This document shows positions 15,963 to 36,065 of a stretch of DNA of 37,753 nt, in pieces. Below the pieces are notes generated by a model that was not told the DNA's origin, searched no databases, and was given only the letters and a program-made list of their open reading frames with translations. The translations under genes and the position numbers were made by a program. The stretch is from Richelia intracellularis. Its GTDB lineage: Bacteria > Cyanobacteriota > Cyanobacteriia > Cyanobacteriales > Nostocaceae. The stretch covers positions 1-37,753 of the forward strand of contig CBZS010000649.1 of the NCBI GenBank assembly GCA_000613065.1, read 5' to 3'. How positions within the stretch are numbered: the first letter of the stretch is position 1; each line of letters opens with the position of its first letter.

Positions 15963-17174
15963 ATGGATAATCTTGCGTATTTACACGTAGCTTTTGCCTA
16001 CGAAGACAGTCCATCTCCTGAATTGATTTCTAGCAGCCATCTCCTTAAAGAATCAGCAGCACCTGATTGGACAAGACTTTCTAGCAAAGCCTGGAAATAC
16101 CTGTTACCCCTAATTTTCACATTATCAATCCTTAGCATTGTCAGCAGTGCCTTCGCCTTAGAAAGAGGCGATCGCGGACCATCTGTGAAAAAATTACAAC
16201 AACAATTACAAACAGCCGGTTTTTATCAAGCAAATATCACCCAACTATTTGATTTTTATACAGAAGATGCCGTTCGTCGCTTCCAAAAAGCCAACAGTTT
16301 ACCCATAGATGGTATTGTTGGCACTCAAACTTTACAAAAATTAGAAAGTCTTCGTGCTTCAACCATGGGCAACAATACACAGAAGAAACCTAATAACGCT
16401 ACTACAGTAGTTAATACAGCGAATACAGTTGTTAACACTACCAGCAAAACGAAGCCAGGTAACACCCAAGCCAAGGTAACTAACACTGTGGTGAGAACTA
16501 CCACAGTAACAACTCCTAGCAATTCTAAAACTACTACAAGTGGTAAATTCCTCTCCCGTGGTGCTGAGGGTAAGGAAGTCCGTCTTTTACAACAGCAGTT
16601 AAAAATAGCAGGTTACTACTACGGAAATACCAACGGAATTTTTGCTCCAATTACAGAAGAAGCGGTGAAAAAATTCCAAGCTGCCTACGACTTAGGTGTA
16701 GATGGAATTGTTGGACCAGCAACCAGAAGCAAATTACCTCCTGTCGGTGTCGGCTTTGGGGAAGATACACCCAACACTAAGAGAACTGATAATAACAGAC
16801 TTTATCTTGGCGATCGCGGTGAACCAGTCCGGGTTTTACAAGCACAATTAATTAAAGCCGGGTACTTGAAAGGTGAACCCAACGGTTACTTTGGACCTTA
16901 TACCGCAGATGCTGTGCGCCGTTTCCAAAAAAATAATTACTTAGCTGCAAGTGGTATTGCAGGCCCCACAACCCGTAATAAGCTTTATGGTTTACTTAAC
17001 AAAAAGAACCAAGGAAAGTTTGATGTCTTAGAAGTGCAAAGAAGACTACGTTCCAGAGGCTTTTATAAAGGACCCCTTAATGGGAAGTTAGAAAAAGAAA
17101 CGAAGCAAGCGATTAAAAATGCCCAAGAATTTTACGGGATTAGTTTGAGGGACGTTAGAAACGGTAGCTTCTAA
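15963..17174 (+). CDS. Peptidoglycan-binding repeat protein, homologue of Anabaena alr1690
   Basis: This 403-aa protein has one membrane segment (about residues 44-66, YLLPLIFTLSILSIVSSAFA), possibly a signal anchor. Four PG_binding_1 units follow, at about 67-128, 196-258, 281-345 and 350-395. Each has the pattern GDRGPSVKKLQQQL ... DAVRRFQKAN ... DGIVGTQTLQKL; the last is shorter. A Thr/Asn-rich linker separates units 1 and 2. It should bind cell-wall glycan outside the membrane; no catalytic domain is visible. It converges with furA, as alr1690 does in Anabaena PCC 7120. There, read-through past this gene makes an antisense RNA to furA. In this window a 91-bp inverted-repeat element lies between the two genes. 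The start ATG at 15963 is 9 bp past cobN. Confidence 0.85.
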   Translation: MDNLAYLHVAFAYEDSPSPELISSSHLLKESAAPDWTRLSSKAWKYLLPLIFTLSILSIVSSAFALERGDRGPSVKKLQQQLQTAGFYQANITQLFDFYTEDAVRRFQKANSLPIDGIVGTQTLQKLESLRASTMGNNTQKKPNNATTVVNTANTVVNTTSKTKPGNTQAKVTNTVVRTTTVTTPSNSKTTTSGKFLSRGAEGKEVRLLQQQLKIAGYYYGNTNGIFAPITEEAVKKFQAAYDLGVDGIVGPATRSKLPPVGVGFGEDTPNTKRTDNNRLYLGDRGEPVRVLQAQLIKAGYLKGEPNGYFGPYTADAVRRFQKNNYLAASGIAGPTTRNKLYGLLNKKNQGKFDVLEVQRRLRSRGFYKGPLNGKLEKETKQAIKNAQEFYGISLRDVRNGSF

Positions 17175-17248
17175 CGTCCATAGAATTTGTTTGTAAATGT
17201 TCTACTGCCCAAAAAGTTTTCCTAATTTGGCTCAAGTGTAAGTTTTTG

Positions 17249-17339
17249 GGCGTTGCTGAATAAGCGGATGATTTTACTAAATTTTCAACGATTTTTCAAT
17301 GGTTTCAAAAGCTAATTCATCCCGCACTTATGCAACGCT
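17249..17339 (+). repeat. 91-bp MITE-like element, copy 1 (between alr1690-like gene and furA)
   Basis: The element has ends GGCGTTGCTGAATAAG and, inverted, AGCGTTGCATAAGTGCGGG. The 8-bp target duplication AGTTTTTG stands on both sides (17241-17248 and 17340-17347). There is no open frame. It sits in the 200-bp gap between two convergent stop codons. The inner 45 bp match the four other copies in the window. This copy is asymmetric, with two different arms. Confidence 0.9.
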
Positions 17340-17374
17340 AGTTTTTGTAACTAGTTGTAAAAATTAATCAACAA

Positions 17375-17830
17375 TTACATTGGCATCAAAGCCCTTTGAC
17401 ACTTGGGGCAAACTGCATGAATTGTCAATTGACAATCCAGCAATTGATAACCTTCCTTTTGGGCAGTTTTTGCACCAATCTTCAAGATTGAATCGTTCTT
17501 AAATTCAATAGTTGAGTTACATCTGGTACAAATTAGATGGTGATGGTGATGGGGATGGGGTTGATTGATTTCATAATGTTTATGGCCTTCTCCCAACTCC
17601 AATTCCCGCAGTATTCCCATCCGTGCCATCAACTTGAGAGTGCGGTAAATCGTTGACAAACTAATGCCCTCACCCTCATGTTCTAAGCGTTCATAGAGTT
17701 CTTCTGCGCTCAGATGCTCTCCTTGAGGTAACTTTTGGAAAATTTCTAAAATTGTCTCTCTCTGGGGAGTTAAACGCCAGCCGCGCTCGTTTAATTCCGC
17801 CTTGAGTGAAGCAGCTGTGTAAACACTCAT
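17375..17830 (-). CDS. furA: Ferric uptake regulator FurA
   Basis: This is the global iron regulator of heterocystous cyanobacteria. It represses iron-uptake genes with Fe(II), and in Anabaena it also binds heme. The winged helix covers residues 8-80 (GWRLTPQRETIL, GISLSTIYRTLKLM). The metal-binding region has GEGHKHYEI and PHHHHHLIC. Cysteines are at 101, 104, 133, 141 and 144 and include both CxxC motifs (CTRC, CPKC) that give Anabaena FurA its redox activity. I choose ATG at 17830 (MSVYT, 151 aa), the Anabaena FurA length; the frame is open six codons further. An inverted repeat just upstream may be its own operator. sigC lies upstream in the same direction but is now separated by an insertion sequence. 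The frame is intact. Confidence 0.95.
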   Translation of the reverse strand: MSVYTAASLKAELNERGWRLTPQRETILEIFQKLPQGEHLSAEELYERLEHEGEGISLSTIYRTLKLMARMGILRELELGEGHKHYEINQPHPHHHHHLICTRCNSTIEFKNDSILKIGAKTAQKEGYQLLDCQLTIHAVCPKCQRALMPM

Positions 17831-17836
17831 ACTAAT

Positions 17837-17867
17837 TATTCTCAACAAAGCCTATTTATTGAGAATA
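17837..17867 (-). promoter_or_regulatory. Possible Fur box upstream of furA
   Basis: A perfect 9-bp inverted repeat, TATTCTCAA and TTGAGAATA (17837-17845 and 17859-17867), lies immediately before the furA start in AT-rich DNA. FurA autoregulates in Anabaena, and AT-rich repeats of this kind serve as operators. The arms are 13 bp apart, wider than in the classic 19-bp box, so the assignment is tentative. Confidence 0.4.
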
Positions 17868-18348
17868 TAGCAAATCATTTGCCCTTTTTGCAACAATAGA
17901 GACTTATTGCGAATTATTGTTAGTTTTTTTAGCGTTCGCCATTAGTGTTTACTTCTATTTGCATAAAGCTTGATCCCCATTAATAAAGCATATGTCAATC
18001 AAACAAGTAGGTAACATTTTGTAAAAAATGTTATTTTTTACAAGCTATTGATAATAAAAACCAAAAAGAAGGGAAGGGTTGGTTGAGAATGTGGGGTTTA
18101 TAGCTAACATCAACCTTTTGATAGTTTGTTAACTATTGACGAATTAGAAATAAATGATTAGCTTGGGAAAAGAATACTCAACCTAATACCATTTTGGATT
18201 TTTGATTCTGGATTGGCAATCAATATCTGTGTCAGGTTTATAAGTGTCCATCCATCTTAATTATTTTTTCAAATTGGTATAAACTAGCAATCAAAAAAAG
18301 CGCAATGTCTTGCGCCTTAATTATTCTGTAATTTTATAAATTTTATTT
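17868..18348. other. furA upstream region
   Basis: This AT-rich stretch has no gene. It should hold the furA promoters (minus strand) and near 18185 the intergenic motif ATACCATTTTGGATT also found near 4740. At its far end is the terminator that probably belongs to sigC. Confidence 0.5.
18293..18316 (-). terminator. Probable original sigC terminator, now 1.7 kb away
   Basis: On the minus strand the stem GCGCAA-GACA-TTGCGC is followed by seven T. It reads in the direction of sigC and would lie about 70 bp past the sigC stop if the insertion sequence at 18349-20047 were absent. Confidence 0.7.
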
Positions 18349-20047
18349 AACCCACATTTGGCAGGTGCGATCGCAAAATGTTGTATTTTTGAAATATGAG
18401 TTTTTCCGAATCACAAATAAAAGTACAAGATATCTATCACTTAGGCATAGTGGCAGAGATTATTGATGAAACGAGTTTGGTTGATTTGTTCAACCAACTG
18501 CTTGGAACTCATCCACAAGAAATAATCAGCGCAGGTCAAGTGATCAAAGCAATTATTATCAATGGCTTAGGCTTTATCAGTGCACCACTATATTTATTTG
18601 AGAACTTCTTTGAAGGGATTCCAACGCAACATTTATTGGGAGAGGGAATACAACCAGAACATTTGAACGATGAACCCTTGGGCAGAGTGTTAGACAAACT
18701 ATATGATGCAGGATTAACGGAAATTTTTATCCGAGTCGCATTATCAGGAGCAGATAGATTTGGAATGAAAATGGACAGCTTCCACTTGGATTCAAGTTCA
18801 TTTCATGTACATGGGGATTATGGAACTGGTACTGATGATGAACCATCAGCACAATCAGGATTAATTACAATTACATATGGTTATTCTAGAGACCACCGAC
18901 CAGATTTGAAACAATTTATCCTTGACTTGATGTGGAGTGGTGATGGAGATATTCCTTTATATTTAAGAGTTGCACATGGTAATGAAGTCGATTCTGCCAT
19001 GTTTGGAACACTTATGGCACATTTCCACAAACAATGGCAAATTGATGCTTTATTTGTTGCGGATGCAGCCCTTTACACTGAAGACAATTTGCAGATGATA
19101 GTCTCATTCAGATGGGTATCTCGAGTGACTGGAACCCTAACTGCCGCAAAAAAACTATTAGAAAAGAACAGTATTGATGCATTTGTACCAGGTAAAATCC
19201 CAGAATATCGTATTGCCCCCTGTTGTAATGATTCTGGTGGTGTGCGACAAGGGTGGCTAGTGATAGAAAGTGAAGCCCGTAAAGAATCTGACTTAAAACA
19301 ACCGGAAAAACGTCTGAGCAAAAAATATACCCAGGCACAATCCCAACTACTAAAATTGTGTCAACAGGAATTTGCATGTGGCGAAGATGCATTCAACCCA
19401 GCCAAATTACTTGAGAGTCAGTTGCCATTTCATCAACTTGCAAATATTGAAGTTATTGAAGATGGCCAACACCGGGAATCTGGTAGACCTCGCAAGGATT
19501 CTCAATCTACCCTAATTTCCCATATTCAAGCCGAAATTGTACCCAAAGAAACTCCAATTACCATTGCGACAGAAGAGGGTGGGAGGTTTCTTATTGCCAC
19601 CAATCTTCTTGATACCGACAAACTTAGCAACGAAGATGTTTTACCTGAATATAAAGCACAACAATCTACAGAACGTGGTTTTCGGTTTCTCAAAGAGCCA
19701 TTGTTTTTTACTTCCACTGTGTTTCTAAATTCAAGAAAAAGAGTGGCGGCTTTGGCAATGGTTATGGGTTTGTGTTTGCTAGTTTACACCCAAGCTCACA
19801 GGGCATTACGCCAATCTCTAAAACGAGGCTCCCAAACAATTCAAAATCAGTTAGGTAAACCAACTGCCACTCCTACTTTACGTTGGGTGTTTCAATGTTT
19901 CATATCAATTCATTTATTAACCTTCGCTTCTTTGAAACGAAACAGATTTCCAACCTCAGTGAGGAGCGGTGCTGGATTTTACAGTTTTTTGGTGCTCCCT
20001 GTGGTAAATATTATCTTCTTTGCTAACTAACCTGCGGAATGTGGGTT
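18349..20047 (+). mobile_element. IS1634-type insertion sequence, complete
   Basis: Inverted ends AACCCACATTTGGCAGGT (left) and AACCCACATTCCGCAGGT (right, read inward) enclose one full transposase gene and little else. I could not find a clear target duplication at the ends, so the outer limits may be off by a few bases. It lies between sigC and furA. A second, decayed copy starts at about 36915. Confidence 0.85.
18396..20030 (+). CDS. IS1634-family transposase (DUF4277-type N-terminus)
   Basis: This 544-aa DDE transposase is uninterrupted. The N-terminal 110 residues resemble the DUF4277 region seen in this family (HLGIVAEIIDETSLVDLFN). The first catalytic aspartate is probably in MDSFHLDSSSFHVHGDY, the second in ALFVADAALYTEDN. 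The late glutamate is probably in STERGFRFLKEPLFF. The C-terminus has LAMVMGLCLLVYTQAHRALR and RWVFQCF, typical of the family. ATG at 18396 lies 47 bp inside the left end. As the only transposase in the window with an open full-length frame, it may be active and may be the source of the copy at 36.9 kb. Confidence 0.9.
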   Translation: MSFSESQIKVQDIYHLGIVAEIIDETSLVDLFNQLLGTHPQEIISAGQVIKAIIINGLGFISAPLYLFENFFEGIPTQHLLGEGIQPEHLNDEPLGRVLDKLYDAGLTEIFIRVALSGADRFGMKMDSFHLDSSSFHVHGDYGTGTDDEPSAQSGLITITYGYSRDHRPDLKQFILDLMWSGDGDIPLYLRVAHGNEVDSAMFGTLMAHFHKQWQIDALFVADAALYTEDNLQMIVSFRWVSRVTGTLTAAKKLLEKNSIDAFVPGKIPEYRIAPCCNDSGGVRQGWLVIESEARKESDLKQPEKRLSKKYTQAQSQLLKLCQQEFACGEDAFNPAKLLESQLPFHQLANIEVIEDGQHRESGRPRKDSQSTLISHIQAEIVPKETPITIATEEGGRFLIATNLLDTDKLSNEDVLPEYKAQQSTERGFRFLKEPLFFTSTVFLNSRKRVAALAMVMGLCLLVYTQAHRALRQSLKRGSQTIQNQLGKPTATPTLRWVFQCFISIHLLTFASLKRNRFPTSVRSGAGFYSFLVLPVVNIIFFAN

Positions 20048-20066
20048 GCAAAAAATCTATTATTAA

Positions 20067-21341
20067 TTAGGTGAGTGACTCCATATAGTCACGAATGAGG
20101 TTGCGTCGCTTGGGTTGACGCAATTTTTGTAAGGCTTTGGATTCGATTTGTCTCACCCTTTCACGGGATAGTTCTAAGGCTCTACCAATTTCAGCTAAGG
20201 AATAGGGATGACCATCAGCCAAACCAAATCGCATCAGGATAACATCTCTTTCTCTGGTAGTTAAATCTGCCAAAAGATTTTGTAAGTCTCTTTGTAAAGA
20301 CTCCCGCATCAGCATATCTTCTGGGGTAACACTATCAGTTTCCAGTAATTCTCCTAATTCAGTGTCCTTATCTTTCCCTACTTTTGTTTCCAGAGAAACA
20401 GAACGGGGTACTCGCAATAATACCTCCCGCACTTGGGTGGGAGTCATGTCTAACTCTACTGCCAAATCTTCCAAAGTAGGAGTGCGTCCCTTCTCTTGGG
20501 AGATTTTGCGTTGAGCTTTTTTTATTTTGTTTAATTTTTCGGTAATGTGGACAGGAAGGCGAATGGTACGGCTAGAAGTAGCGATCGCTCTAGTAATACC
20601 TTGACGAATCCACCAATAAGCATAAGTACTAAAACGATAGCCCTTTGTGGGGTCAAATTTATCAACCGCTCTTTCTAAACCCAAAGTACCTTCTTGTACT
20701 AAATCTAGTAGTTCTAAACCTCGATTTTGATACTTCTTAGCAACAGATACAACTAGGCGAAGATTTGCCTTAATCATATGTTCTTTTGCCTGAAGTCCTG
20801 CGGATTGAACTTTTTCCAATTCTTCCACAGTCAACTTAGCAGTTTCTGCCCATCGACGTTTTCCTTGGGCAAGAACACGCTTGAGTTCAAATACATCCAC
20901 ATCAGCAGTTCTAGCCCAACGTTCTAAGGAAGGACGGTGTCCCAACTCCGATGATAATCTTTCTTGAGCTTCAATCAACCGTAAGTAGGGTTGTAGGATT
21001 TCATCCCCTTTTTTCGTCTTATTGGCTAACAAAACCCGTAGCTTTAAATAGCGTTGTACTTTTTGAGCTTCGGAAACTTCCTCATCTCTTCCTAACAAAC
21101 GCACCCGTCCAATTTCTTGCAGATACAGACGGACTAAATCTGTGCTGCGACGGTTTGGACTTGGTACTAGGGAAGCTTGTTCTTGTTCTATGGAAGCAGT
21201 TTCTAGCTCTTCCAATTCCTCTTGGCTGACTGACAATTCAGCTTCATCGAGGTTATCATCCATAGTGGGTTCCGTATCAAAAACCTGGGTAGGTTTTTGG
21301 GTTTCGTCGGTAGTATCTACGTAAAAAGATGTTGCTGGCAT
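20067..21341 (-). CDS. sigC: Group 2 RNA polymerase sigma factor SigC
   Basis: This is a sigma-70-type factor, non-essential group 2. In Anabaena sigC is expressed early in heterocyst development; it directs RNA polymerase to alternative promoters. Region 1.2 is DLVRLYLQEIGRVRLL. Region 2 runs from HMIKANLRLVVSVAKKYQ through LELLDLVQEGTLGL to YAYWWIRQGITRAIA. Region 3 includes LPVHITEKLNKIKKAQRK. Region 4 has ERDVILMRFGL and the helix-turn-helix YSLAEIGRALELSRERVRQIE. I choose the ATG at 21341 (MPATSFYVD, 424 aa), as in Nostoc SigC; the frame opens ten codons earlier. An IS1634-type element sits 20 bp behind its stop, so its transcript now runs into the element. The frame is intact. Confidence 0.93.
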   Translation of the reverse strand: MPATSFYVDTTDETQKPTQVFDTEPTMDDNLDEAELSVSQEELEELETASIEQEQASLVPSPNRRSTDLVRLYLQEIGRVRLLGRDEEVSEAQKVQRYLKLRVLLANKTKKGDEILQPYLRLIEAQERLSSELGHRPSLERWARTADVDVFELKRVLAQGKRRWAETAKLTVEELEKVQSAGLQAKEHMIKANLRLVVSVAKKYQNRGLELLDLVQEGTLGLERAVDKFDPTKGYRFSTYAYWWIRQGITRAIATSSRTIRLPVHITEKLNKIKKAQRKISQEKGRTPTLEDLAVELDMTPTQVREVLLRVPRSVSLETKVGKDKDTELGELLETDSVTPEDMLMRESLQRDLQNLLADLTTRERDVILMRFGLADGHPYSLAEIGRALELSRERVRQIESKALQKLRQPKRRNLIRDYMESLT

Positions 21342-21856
21342 AAAGTATCGTCTCAATGGCTCCAGGTACAATAGATTACGGTCAGCTAATTAACTGTTCC
21401 TATTATTCCCGTGATTTGCGATGAACTAACACAAGTTTTGTTTTTTTCACAGTTTTTGTCGGTATTAAATAATTAGTTATATTTTATACTAGTACTTATT
21501 TGTTCTAAATCTGTAGAAATTTGATTATGTTGTTAGGATTCCTAATATTTTATTAACAGTAATTTGAGTATTTATTCAGATTCTGGAAAAATAGGAATTT
21601 ATTTTGATTGCTTCTAGCATTTTTTGGTATAAACTAAGACACCTCGAGAAGTAAAATAATTTTTGGCATATTCCTATTTAGAGGGATATATAATTTATTT
21701 CCTGAAGATTTATGTTTTTCTCCTCACGAAATCCTATTATCGTGTATGTGTGTAATTATGTATTTTACTTTCCGAATTCTTTCATAGCTCGGAGATATTT
21801 CACGAAGGAATTGATAGCCTAGGTTTATCCTGTACAGATGCTATGGGAAAACCAAC
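21342..21856. other. sigC upstream region
   Basis: This very AT-rich stretch has no gene. It should contain the sigC promoter(s) on the minus strand. The motif GGTATAAACTA occurs here near 21627 and also near 18276; its meaning is unclear. Confidence 0.4.
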
Positions 21857-21972: not shown

Positions 21973-22930
21973 CTACAAAGCCAGGTGATTGCGTTTATGT
22001 TCTTGTTGTAGATGAAACTGCCAATACTCATCCCAATCGCCACTGATGTATAAAGAAGCCAGGGGTAAAACAGCCTCAGCACCCCTCATGGTACATCTAG
22101 CCCCAGTGATATCCATCCTGTCTTTAATCAGGTGGCGACAAGCACCCTCAATCACCCCCGTGGCTATGGGGAATCCAGCTTTTAAGTAATCGTCATATTT
22201 GAGGGATTTGGCATTGTTAAGTAAATATCTACCACAGGTATCCACGGGTTTACGTTCTTGGGGGTGAGTTTGGGTAAAGTCGCACTCCGGCGCATACCTG
22301 GGGCAACAGAACTTGATTTACCTTCAAGGATAAGCTGTAAACGTTTGCTCTCCCTAGGTTCTGCCTGTGTTGAAGTCTGAGAAAAAAAGACAAATGCAGC
22401 TTTCCACAAAAACTCAATCACATGGATAATATCCCTGTATTAATCCATGAGAATATTGCTGTGCTGGTAGATTAAACTCCCCATCCAAAGGAAATAGCGT
22501 ATTTATCTTTCTTCCTCCATAACCGATTATATTGGCGATTACTGTGCCAAATAATGTGGTCAATTTGCGGGACAATTTTTTCTTGTGTGTTCTGTTTACT
22601 GAGTCTGTGCCTGCACAGTCTCCCTCTATTTAATGTTGACTGCGTTTATGAAAATATCTTTGTTTGTAACAACCGTCTCAATAGTTCGTATCCATTCTCA
22701 GCGTTGCATAAGTGCGGGATGAATTAGCGTTTGAAAGCATTGAGAAATCGTTGAAAATTTAGTGAAATCATCCCGCACTTATGCAACGCCCCATTCTCAA
22801 GTAACTTACTCTCTATCTGGGAGTGTTCTAACCCACAAATGCTGTCTGAGTCTAACCAACTAACTATCTGTTCAAATAGTTCTCGTGCTTGTGACCAAAA
22901 CATACCTTGATTTGATGTAGATCCTTGCAT
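21973..22930 (-). pseudogene. ISKra4-family transposase, broken
   Basis: The start MQGSTSNQGMFWSQ leads to EHSQIESKLLENG, where MITE copy 2 cuts it. The reading resumes as NGYELLRRLLQ on the other side. After several stops come IEFLWKAAFVFF and the C-terminal block with VIEGACRHLIKDRMD, TGARCTMRGAEAVL and SGDWDEYW. A complete ISKra4 transposase is longer; part of the middle is missing. It cannot encode an active enzyme. Confidence 0.8.
22701..22790 (-). repeat. 91-bp MITE-like element, copy 2 (inside ISKra4 transposase)
   Basis: Both arms carry the same end, GCGTTGCATAAGTGCGGG, in inverted orientation (symmetric type). The duplication CCATTCTCA flanks it (22692-22700 and 22791-22799; 8 bp if the final A at 22700 is counted as a mutated first base of the element). 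The two halves of the transposase codons LLENG/ENGYELL join across it, proving insertion into existing sequence. Confidence 0.92.
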
Positions 22931-24993: not shown

Positions 24994-25084
24994 GGTGTTG
25001 CATAAGTGCGGGATGAATTAGCGTTTTAAACCACTGATAAATCGTTTAAAATTTAGTGAAATCATCCCCTGATTCAGCAACGCC
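24994..25084 (-). repeat. 91-bp MITE-like element, copy 3 (3' untranslated region of SLH gene)
   Basis: Ends are GGTGTTGCATAAGTGCGGG and, inverted, GGCGTTGCTGAATCAGGGG (asymmetric type). The 8-bp duplication AAATTTAA stands at 24986-24993 and 25085-25092. It is inserted 15 bp behind the stop codon of the SLH-domain gene and upstream of its terminator, so it should be part of that mRNA. Confidence 0.92.
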
Positions 25085-25099
25085 AAATTTAATATTTGC

Positions 25100-26785
25100 T
25101 TAATTTTGCATAGATGCAGCAGCTTCGGAACCAGGAACTTTAACTACATATGCAGAAGGAATCGCTTCCGCTCTACCAGCATTCACAAGTGCTTGATAAA
25201 CAAAAGCTGCAACTTCTGCTCTGGTGGCTTGATTCTTGGGTTTTAGTTGTTTAACAGTTGGGTAGTTAACCACAATTTGTTTCATTGTCGCTGCGGATAC
25301 AGGACTCTTAGCCCAAGATGGAATTTGGGAAGCGTCGTTATAGAAAGATAGGGAATTTTGATCAGGTGCAGTTAGCTCCAAGCCATTAGCCAAGGATACT
25401 AAAACCTGTACCCGAGGGATTTGTACCTCTGGTTTGAAGGTTTTGTTGGGATATCCAGAGAGGAAGCCACCACGGGAAGCAGTTTGAATTGCTTGATATC
25501 CCCAATATCTAGTGCTAACGTCACTAAAGTTGATTGCTGTGCGCTTGGCTGCAGGTGTAAAGGCTTTGTTGATGATAGCTGCAAACTGAGCACGGGTAAC
25601 CCTATCATTGGGTTTAAAAGTTCCATCAGGGAAACCTGCAATTACACCTTTTGCAGATAAAGCCTTAATGTAGTTATTTGCCCAGTGACTAGTTGGTACG
25701 TCTTTGAAAGTAACTGGCGCTCCAGGAGGTGCTTCCACATCAGAAGCGACATAATCTACGTTACCCTGGAATGTATTAATGCTATTACCAATAGCTACAA
25801 CCACATTGTTGGTAGCATTATTGAGATCATAGCGTTTGTTGTCACTAATCAAGTTCTCACCAGGATCTTCATTGGTTCCCAAATTAGGTAAACCTTGAGA
25901 AATTACAACAATACCATCGCGGCTGTTATTTTTAATGACATTCTTACGTAAAACAGGCTTTGCAGAATTGGAGATAAAAATACCATCTGTATTTTCAATA
26001 ATTCGGTTTGCTTCTAGACGAGGTGTAGAATTGTCACCAATAGCCAAGCCAAAACCTGTACTTTGGAATAAATTGTTACGAACTACGCCCTTGGAATCTC
26101 TGGCAATAGAAACCCCATTACCTTGATTTCCAGAAAAAACATTATTTTCAATAATGGGATTACCTGTACCCGTAACAAATACCCCTTCTCTGAGGCTATT
26201 AATAAATGTACTATTTTTAATGATTGGGTTAGTTGATTCTACCCAGACTCCCGTGCCGCGACTCGCAGGGTTTGTCACAGTAACGCCACTAATTACACTG
26301 TTGTTTTCAGCCAAAATCGTTACATTTTGTCGAGCAAAAGTACGGCTGATATAGTTACCACTGCCATTTATTAGTACTGCTTGTCCTGTAGTGCTGTCAT
26401 TACCTAAGAGAGTGACACCGGATTTAATATTCAGAGGGAATTGTTCTCCAGTATCTGCGCTATAGGTTCCAGGTGCAAGTTGAATGGTTGTACCTGCTTG
26501 AGCTTTGGAAAGAGCAAAGGAGATGGTTTTATAAGGAGCTTGAGCTGTAGCTCCAGCTCCATCAGTATCTGACCCAGTTTCTGGATTGACATACATTCCC
26601 GTTCCAGTGACTGGAGTCTGTGCCATTAAAATGTTGTTGCTTCCTTGCTGGTTGGCATTTACCTCAGTCGGTAATAGCATTGCTCCACCAGAAACCATTA
26701 ATAGAGCAGAAACTCCTGCAGATAAGAAGCGGAAATTTTTGCCTTGCTGAATATCTAATCCCTGACGTGTCATTTTGATTCCCAT
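25100..26785 (-). CDS. Exported beta-helix (DUF1565) protein with three SLH domains
   Basis: This is a 561-aa surface protein. Residues 1-45 are a signal peptide (basic start, then FLSAGVSALLMVSGGAMLLP, cut near VNANQ). Residues about 65-350 are a right-handed parallel beta-helix. It opens with the DUF1565-type text YVNPETGSDTD and APYKTISFALSKAQAGTTI, followed by repeating N-rich turns such as NPIIENNVFSGNQGNG. Three S-layer homology domains follow, at about 360-410 (FKDVPTSHWANNYIKAL), 420-470 (FSDVSTRYWGYQAIQTA) and 485-540. SLH domains bind secondary cell-wall polymer; the helix may bind or cleave a polysaccharide, but no catalytic residues can be assigned. The start may be the first Met or the Met four codons on. 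The frame is intact. Confidence 0.88.
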   Translation of the reverse strand: MGIKMTRQGLDIQQGKNFRFLSAGVSALLMVSGGAMLLPTEVNANQQGSNNILMAQTPVTGTGMYVNPETGSDTDGAGATAQAPYKTISFALSKAQAGTTIQLAPGTYSADTGEQFPLNIKSGVTLLGNDSTTGQAVLINGSGNYISRTFARQNVTILAENNSVISGVTVTNPASRGTGVWVESTNPIIKNSTFINSLREGVFVTGTGNPIIENNVFSGNQGNGVSIARDSKGVVRNNLFQSTGFGLAIGDNSTPRLEANRIIENTDGIFISNSAKPVLRKNVIKNNSRDGIVVISQGLPNLGTNEDPGENLISDNKRYDLNNATNNVVVAIGNSINTFQGNVDYVASDVEAPPGAPVTFKDVPTSHWANNYIKALSAKGVIAGFPDGTFKPNDRVTRAQFAAIINKAFTPAAKRTAINFSDVSTRYWGYQAIQTASRGGFLSGYPNKTFKPEVQIPRVQVLVSLANGLELTAPDQNSLSFYNDASQIPSWAKSPVSAATMKQIVVNYPTVKQLKPKNQATRAEVAAFVYQALVNAGRAEAIPSAYVVKVPGSEAAASMQN

Positions 26786-33117: not shown

Positions 33118-33208
33118 GGCGTTGCTGAATCAGGGGATGATTTCACTAAATTTTCAACGATTTCTCAATGCTTTAAAAAGCTCATTCATCCCGCACTTAT
33201 GCAACCCC
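33118..33208 (+). repeat. 91-bp MITE-like element, copy 4
   Basis: Ends are GGCGTTGCTGAATCAGGGG and, inverted, GGGGTTGCATAAGTGCGGG (asymmetric type). The inner part matches the other copies closely. Unlike them it has no matching flanks: AGATATTC on the left, TCCGAAAC on the right. A later deletion or recombination on one side is likely. Confidence 0.85.
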
Positions 33209-35486: not shown

Positions 35487-36065
35487 TTAGGCAAATTCAG
35501 TTTTTGGGAAACGAAGTTCATAGTTGCGCAAACCAGCTATGAGATTAAATCTCAAGCTAAATCTTTTTCTACGATTACAATAACGGTCGGAGAAAATTTT
35601 CAATATCTTCAGTTTCCGACCAATATGCTCACCCACAACTCGAACTTTGGGCAACTGTTGATTACTCTTTTTCTCTTCAGGACTAAGGTCACCACCCCTG
35701 GACTTCTTTTTTGGGCGTTGCATAAGTGCGGGATGATTTCACTAAATGTTCAACGATTTCTCAATGGTTTCAAACCCTAATTCATCCCGCACTTATGCAA
35801 CGCCCTTTTTTGGTATTCTACTGTTGGTATGAAGTTTACCAATTCCTTGATATCCTTTATCGCCTAACAATTCAATATCTTTTCTTAACCTAACTTGACT
35901 GTTTGAAAATATGCGAAAATCATGCTTTTTCCCCTTCCCATGGGAAGTACATAGGATTTCTCTCGTACTTTGCCCGGATTTCTCACTTGTGAGAAAAAAA
36001 CACTTGGATGAGCCAGATTTAGGATAAATTAATTGGCACATTGTCAAATTCCTTGCAGATGACAA
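35487..36065 (-). pseudogene. IS5-family (DDE_Tnp_4-type) transposase, cut by a MITE
   Basis: The minus strand reads SREILCTSHGKGKKHDFRIF-like text and LLGDKGYQGIGKLHTNSRIP up to MITE copy 5. Beyond the MITE it continues KKSRGGDLSPEEKKSNQQLP, VRVVGEHIGRKLKILKIFSD and RRKRFSLRFNLIAGLRNYEL. These are the late catalytic blocks of the family. The N-terminal half is absent. Its right end is close to the broken histidine kinase, which it may have disrupted. Confidence 0.82.
35714..35804 (+). repeat. 91-bp MITE-like element, copy 5 (inside IS5 transposase)
   Basis: Both arms carry GGCGTTGCATAAGTGCGGGA (symmetric type). The 8-bp duplication CTTTTTTG is at 35706-35713 and 35805-35812. It splits the lysine-rich segment between NSRIPKK and KKSRGG of the IS5-type transposase remnant. 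Confidence 0.93.

Follow-up and report, generated by a model that had tools for sequence, protein, structure and literature searches.

An IS1-type MITE between an alr1690-like gene and furA in Richelia intracellularis, likely a passive insertion

Does a mobile element that lies between furA and its convergent neighbor interfere with the control of furA, or is it a passenger there? This question is raised by a 37,753-nt stretch of Richelia intracellularis DNA (analysed at its full length and referred to below as the window), which contains the gene pair of the alpha-furA system of Anabaena PCC 7120. According to the account of that system in PMC6202907, the convergent alr1690/furA pair yields an antisense furA RNA, alpha-furA, whose disruption leads to higher FurA. 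The convergent gene pair is common to both loci, whereas in the window a MITE lies between the genes and the antisense RNA is putative.

The ORF at 15963-17174 (+ strand) encodes a peptidoglycan-binding protein (PG_binding_1, E-value 1.3e-68) and is identified as alr1690-like by its position and its convergence with furA, which is located at 17375-17848 on the - strand (FUR family, PF01475, E-value 1e-43). The stop codons of the two genes face each other across a gap of 200 bp (17175-17374). The initial annotation of this DNA had reported both the convergent pair and a MITE with its duplication between the two stops, and our analysis confirmed both: a 91-bp imperfect palindrome at 17249-17339, with the termini GGCGTTGCTG...GCAACGCT, is bounded by perfect 8-bp target-site duplications AGTTTTTG at 17241-17248 and 17340-17347 (+ strand), the right one of which yields AGUUUUUG immediately downstream of the hairpin when the alr1690 strand is read. 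The left arm of the palindrome belongs to type A (GCGTTGCTGAATAAGCGGATGA) and the right arm to type B (GCGTTGCATAAGTGCGGGATGA, - strand), two types that are described below. A comparison of the window with Rfam gave no match that reached a gathering score, and among the papers listed on Richelia transposons, cyanobacterial MITEs, IS1-family MITEs and the motif GCGTTGC, no title or opening of an abstract describes the element. Judged by its sequence features, it is an IS1-derived MITE, new but of an ordinary kind, and this genome abounds in such elements.

The surroundings of furA were compared among 60 genomes of the family, 59 of which (own included) contain a furA match; the best furA of 58 relatives is 82-91% identical. 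The combination of furA with a convergent alr1690-like gene, which characterizes the alpha-furA system, was found at the locus in question and in 54 of the 58 relatives; in the other four (L152, L190, L195, L197) no convergent peptidoglycan-binding gene was found within 1.5 kb of furA. The gap between the two genes varies from 9 to 571 bp in relatives, with a median of 125 bp (n = 55, own included), and from this spread we judge that the junction is a permissive site. In the window, subtraction of the MITE and one repeat leaves 101 bp, and a same-genus relative (G001, locus L144) has a gap of 96 bp with related sequence and without the insert. A search with an 11-nt arm motif (at most 1 mismatch, so that a strongly decayed copy would escape) identified the arm pair at the junction in none of the 54 relatives with the gene pair; the only trace was an unpaired, imperfect match of 11 nt that resembles an arm, in one of them (L133).

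A 22-base arm pattern has 710 matches in the own genome (G000; 5.49 Mb in 857 contigs), and a strict pattern of the whole element identifies 247 copies there, with no matches to the reversed control pattern in either case; at least 41 own-genome matches to the MITE were listed in the first search, and 40 of 732 first-look candidates were scored. The same whole-element count in six relatives gave 2 copies in G021, 4 in G010 and none in G001, G024, G034 and G030, and less stringent BLAST matches, in many cases to a single arm, occur in 29 of the 60 genomes (own counted). The contrast of 247 copies with 0-4, together with the spread of the BLAST matches, indicates that the family is shared and has been amplified in this lineage. 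A search of plasmids reported 25 records with a match to the MITE, 12 of them covering at least 80% of it, and apart from one partial match in Cetobacterium the 25 are from cyanobacteria; these plasmid matches provided the clue to the IS1 family.

A sample of 95 copies (from the window and the loci L001-L030, L155-L174 and L204-L223; copies were admitted if neither arm had more than 5 mismatches and 20 nt of flank was available) was used to characterize the family. All of them have paired 22-nt arms, and each spans 89 bp when measured from arm end to arm end. An 8-bp duplication with at most one mismatch flanks 55 of the 95, among them 39 with a perfect one, and frames of 7, 9 or 10 bp almost never match. 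In the other 40 copies the would-be duplication has more than one mismatch, which may be due to rearrangement or recombination between copies, to decay, or to misassembly of the draft. Of the 95 copies, 19 (12 of the 55 with a duplication) have a run of TTTTT no more than 10 nt from one end, compared to 601 (4.8%) of 12600 insertions mimicked at intergenic sites, which suggests that T-run targets are favored and that terminator-like layouts can be a by-product of this preference.

The arms fall into two 22-nt types, A and B, different at 6 positions, and the 95 copies comprise 68 AB, 18 BB and 9 AA combinations; 157 of the 190 arms are pure at the six diagnostic positions. Three of the 14 most frequent core sequences listed are seen with AB, BB and AA arms alike. 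Four homotypic copies (L159:933, L204:18611, L212:9198, L218:1097) have a private variant common to both arms, a number of shared variants reached in 41 of 5000 permutations of all copies and in 6 of 5000 permutations restricted to homotypic ones, and in one copy (C17:2278) the arms are in the reverse order. In yeast, inverted repeats undergo homogenization of arms and inversion of the spacer via template switching, as reported in PMC8604942. By analogy, the block switching in the MITE likely reflects template switching within the palindrome, and the copies document, as a natural archive, how sequence has switched from one arm to the other within palindromes.

The ends of the MITE lead to the IS1 family. 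The IS1 transposase domain (PF03400) has 53 matches in the own genome, 52 of them above the cut-off, and at 13 of 20 IS1-type loci that were read there we found GGCGTTGC-type ends 749-762 bp apart (L158 was left out of the 13, its right end being that of a MITE). In a count of duplications over 14 IS1-type pairs, six of these 13 showed a perfect 8-bp one and seven did not. The relative G034 contains four 754-bp elements, in each of which one end is A-like (GGCGTTGCTGAATAAAGGGATGA) and the other B-like (GGCGTTGCATAATAGAAGGATGA), two of them with perfect 8-bp duplications (L225, CATTAATG; L227, AGATTTTC) and two without (L224, L226). The reading frames of L224, the only one of the four that was scanned, include PF03400 (E-value 3.5e-13) and, below the Pfam cut-offs, an InsA-type zinc ribbon (E-value 4.6e-4) and another zinc ribbon. 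In the genome G012, an element of 778 bp (L118:2479-3256) has ends of the same type and a reading frame that resembles the InsA-type one of L224, and is apparently a decayed IS1-type relative.

The MITE thus shares with cyanobacterial IS1-family elements of ~750 bp (PF03400) the GGCGTTGC..GGGATGA termini and the 8-bp duplications, but it is only 91 bp long, has no transposase, and its arms are not identical to the IS1 ends that were read. A parent IS whose arms equal those of the MITE was not found at the loci read, the arm pairs of L157 and L158 ending in MITE copies, and the core of the MITE matched none of 17 IS1-type elements except for the MITE in L158. Only the ends tie the MITE to IS1, because the core is unmatched in the IS1 interiors compared. 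The element is short and non-coding, with inverted ends, a duplication of fixed length and many dispersed copies, and its termini are similar, not identical, to those of an autonomous IS; this set of features corresponds to a type I, IS1-derived MITE, and the element resembles a pair of IS1 ends from which the gene is missing. A very abundant cyanobacterial MITE is thereby given a likely parent family, IS1, and its mobility becomes testable.

Further MITEs are known from cyanobacteria. Nezha and the MUST set of Anabaena variabilis are cited by name in the reference list of PMC10969869. The MITEs of Anabaena sp. 90, in the account given in PMC3542288, are likewise small many-copy repeats with inverted ends, intergenic in 132 of 147 cases; they are however presented there as type II, without a parent IS, whereas the MITE in the window has IS1-type ends. 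Similarly, the 187-bp MITE of Microcystis PCC 7806 is described in PMC11448079 as present in many copies, with inverted ends and mostly intergenic, but the ends reported there are of the ISL3 type rather than of the IS1 type.

We considered whether the junction with furA belongs to a preferred class of sites. In 421 kb of sequence with 60 MITEs, we counted 11 between convergent, 25 between tandem and 10 between divergent ORFs, 11 within ORFs and 3 at edges, while random points fall 5.6% in convergent, 16.5% in tandem and 9.0% in divergent gaps and 65% within ORFs of at least 90 aa, which were used as a proxy for genes (the stretches were picked for contigs holding copies, so the density is biased). 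There is no clear enrichment between convergent ORFs in this sample, and a clear preference of the MITE for convergent junctions was rejected, the 11/25/10 split being close to that of the control.

A further hairpin, located outside the MITE, spans the stop codon of the alr1690-like ORF on the + strand (GGACGTTAGAA/TTCTAACGTCC, 17150-17160 and 17169-17179), with a predicted energy of -18.9 kcal/mol (z -4.7) on the + strand and -19.8 kcal/mol (z -8.1) on the - strand. A stem of the AGCGGA/TCCGCT kind is present at the corresponding place in 33 of 58 rows compared (including the own locus, L032, L034 and L035). Of 79 loci from a scan of genome contigs, L031-L036 were used for the junction, and L031, L033 and L036 were dropped ahead of this count as duplicates of contigs in the set. 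The stem score averages 10.5 over the 58 rows, 9.5 when arms are swapped between genomes and 8.3 when the right arms are shuffled, hence the conservation of its position is clearer than its covariation. Such a stem is also present in the same-genus relative, where the MITE is missing, which suggests that the native hairpin is probably older than the insertion. It is not followed by a U-run in the window; nonetheless, we regard it as the better candidate for a general 3'-end signal.

The reading that we favor, with considerable confidence, is that of a non-autonomous MITE with IS1 ends, moved in trans and likely passive at the furA junction. According to this model, an IS1-type transposase would act on an element that consists of two IS1-family ends and has no gene, and would insert it into the AT-rich target AGTTTTTG in a short convergent gap, with duplication of 8 bp; the insertion would then have been kept because convergent 3' ends tolerate it. 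The effect would be nil or slight, at most a hairpin and a U-run that trim the alr1690 read-through toward furA. We infer this neutrality from the context of the element. The alternative that the palindrome could be a local structure or an artefact of assembly, not a transposed element, has some basis in the draft character of the assembly, with its 857 contigs and short repeats, and in the 40 of 95 copies that lack a clean duplication, but the copy next to furA has a perfect one and both of its flanks belong to a single syntenic junction common to 54 relatives, so that we assign to this explanation a practically negligible probability.

The arrangement on the antisense strand does resemble a terminator. 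On the + strand (that of alr1690 and of the antisense RNA), the MITE is predicted to fold with -24.0 kcal/mol (z -2.5) into a 91-nt hairpin that is followed by AG and then by UUUUU (in AGUUUUUG), while no U-run follows the hairpin on the furA strand. To our knowledge cyanobacteria lack Rho, which would lend weight to layouts of this type. The insertion could accordingly have built an intrinsic-type terminator that halts the read-through of the alr1690-like gene before furA and abolishes or lowers the furA antisense RNA. Its position between the two stops would fit, the excess of T-runs near MITE ends implies that insertion often gives a hairpin with a U-run, and in Anabaena FurA goes up when the antisense RNA is disrupted, as stated in PMC6202907. 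On the other hand, the hairpin is long and interrupted, a scan of the junction for terminators (which allows only loops of 3-8) found none, the native hairpin is positioned upstream at the stop codon, and the antisense RNA in this lineage is putative. We therefore consider this explanation unlikely, and equally doubtful, if not slightly more so, is its extension, namely that these MITEs tend to land in T-runs and to duplicate them, so that insertion frequently creates a hairpin with a U-run, with the new terminator cutting the alr1690 read-through and removing the antisense control of furA here and the MITE burst scattering many such terminators over the genome. If some copies do work as terminators, the burst could alter transcript ends genome-wide, and the furA junction would provide one clean test case. 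A selected role of the MITE as a regulatory part (a processing site, a source of sRNA or a stabilizer of the furA 3' end) appears very improbable: the fold on the furA strand is stable (-25.6 kcal/mol, z -3.3) and a sigma-70-like site is present inside the copy (17299-17271, - strand), but the count of promoter-like sites in the region is that expected by chance (7 vs 6.1), and the arm search found no MITE at this place in the 54 relatives. Moreover, this copy departs from the AB consensus at 5 of its 89 inner positions, and the 68 AB copies have on average 3.0 differences, with at least 5 in 16 of them, which gives no sign of special constraint.

With respect to the passive reading, the proposals of the initial annotation about function fared differently. 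The suggestion that the hairpin arms could terminate read-through is retained in part, in that AGUUUUUG does follow the hairpin on the antisense strand and lends it weak support, whereas the terminator scan did not return the hairpin. The idea that the element could rewire iron regulation found no sequence evidence, considering the ~250 copies, the lack of a clear preference for convergent sites in the sample, the permissive junction and the native hairpin already in place; a regulatory effect of the MITE on furA is possible and testable, its support going no further than the suggestive layout. Finally, the inverted repeat that the insertion had been said to complete is indeed present (GCCCAAAAAGTT at 17207-17218 and AAGTTTTTGGGC at 17240-17251, + strand, the final GGC being derived from the MITE), but when 3000 junctions were shuffled and the MITE was placed at random, 4.2% gave a perfect repeat of at least 9, hence it is not notable. 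Its left arm is kept in the same-genus relative (L144) with the partner absent, and the repeat was rejected as a functional stem.

Several other elements are found in the window. An IS element at 18336-20060, with a DUF4277 transposase and 42-nt inverted ends, lies between furA and a sigma-70 gene (20067-21371); we take it to be IS1634-like. Its transposase has no match in the corresponding region of the same-genus relative G001 (L229), and it was rejected as the parent of the MITE, as its ends differ. A copy of the MITE at 24995-25084 is positioned ~15 bp past the stop of an SLH-domain ORF (25100-26785, - strand), between that ORF and what appears by eye to be a hairpin followed by a T-run on the - strand. 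Further copies are located at 22701-22790, 33118-33207 and 35714-35804, the last of them flanked by the duplication CTTTTTTG.
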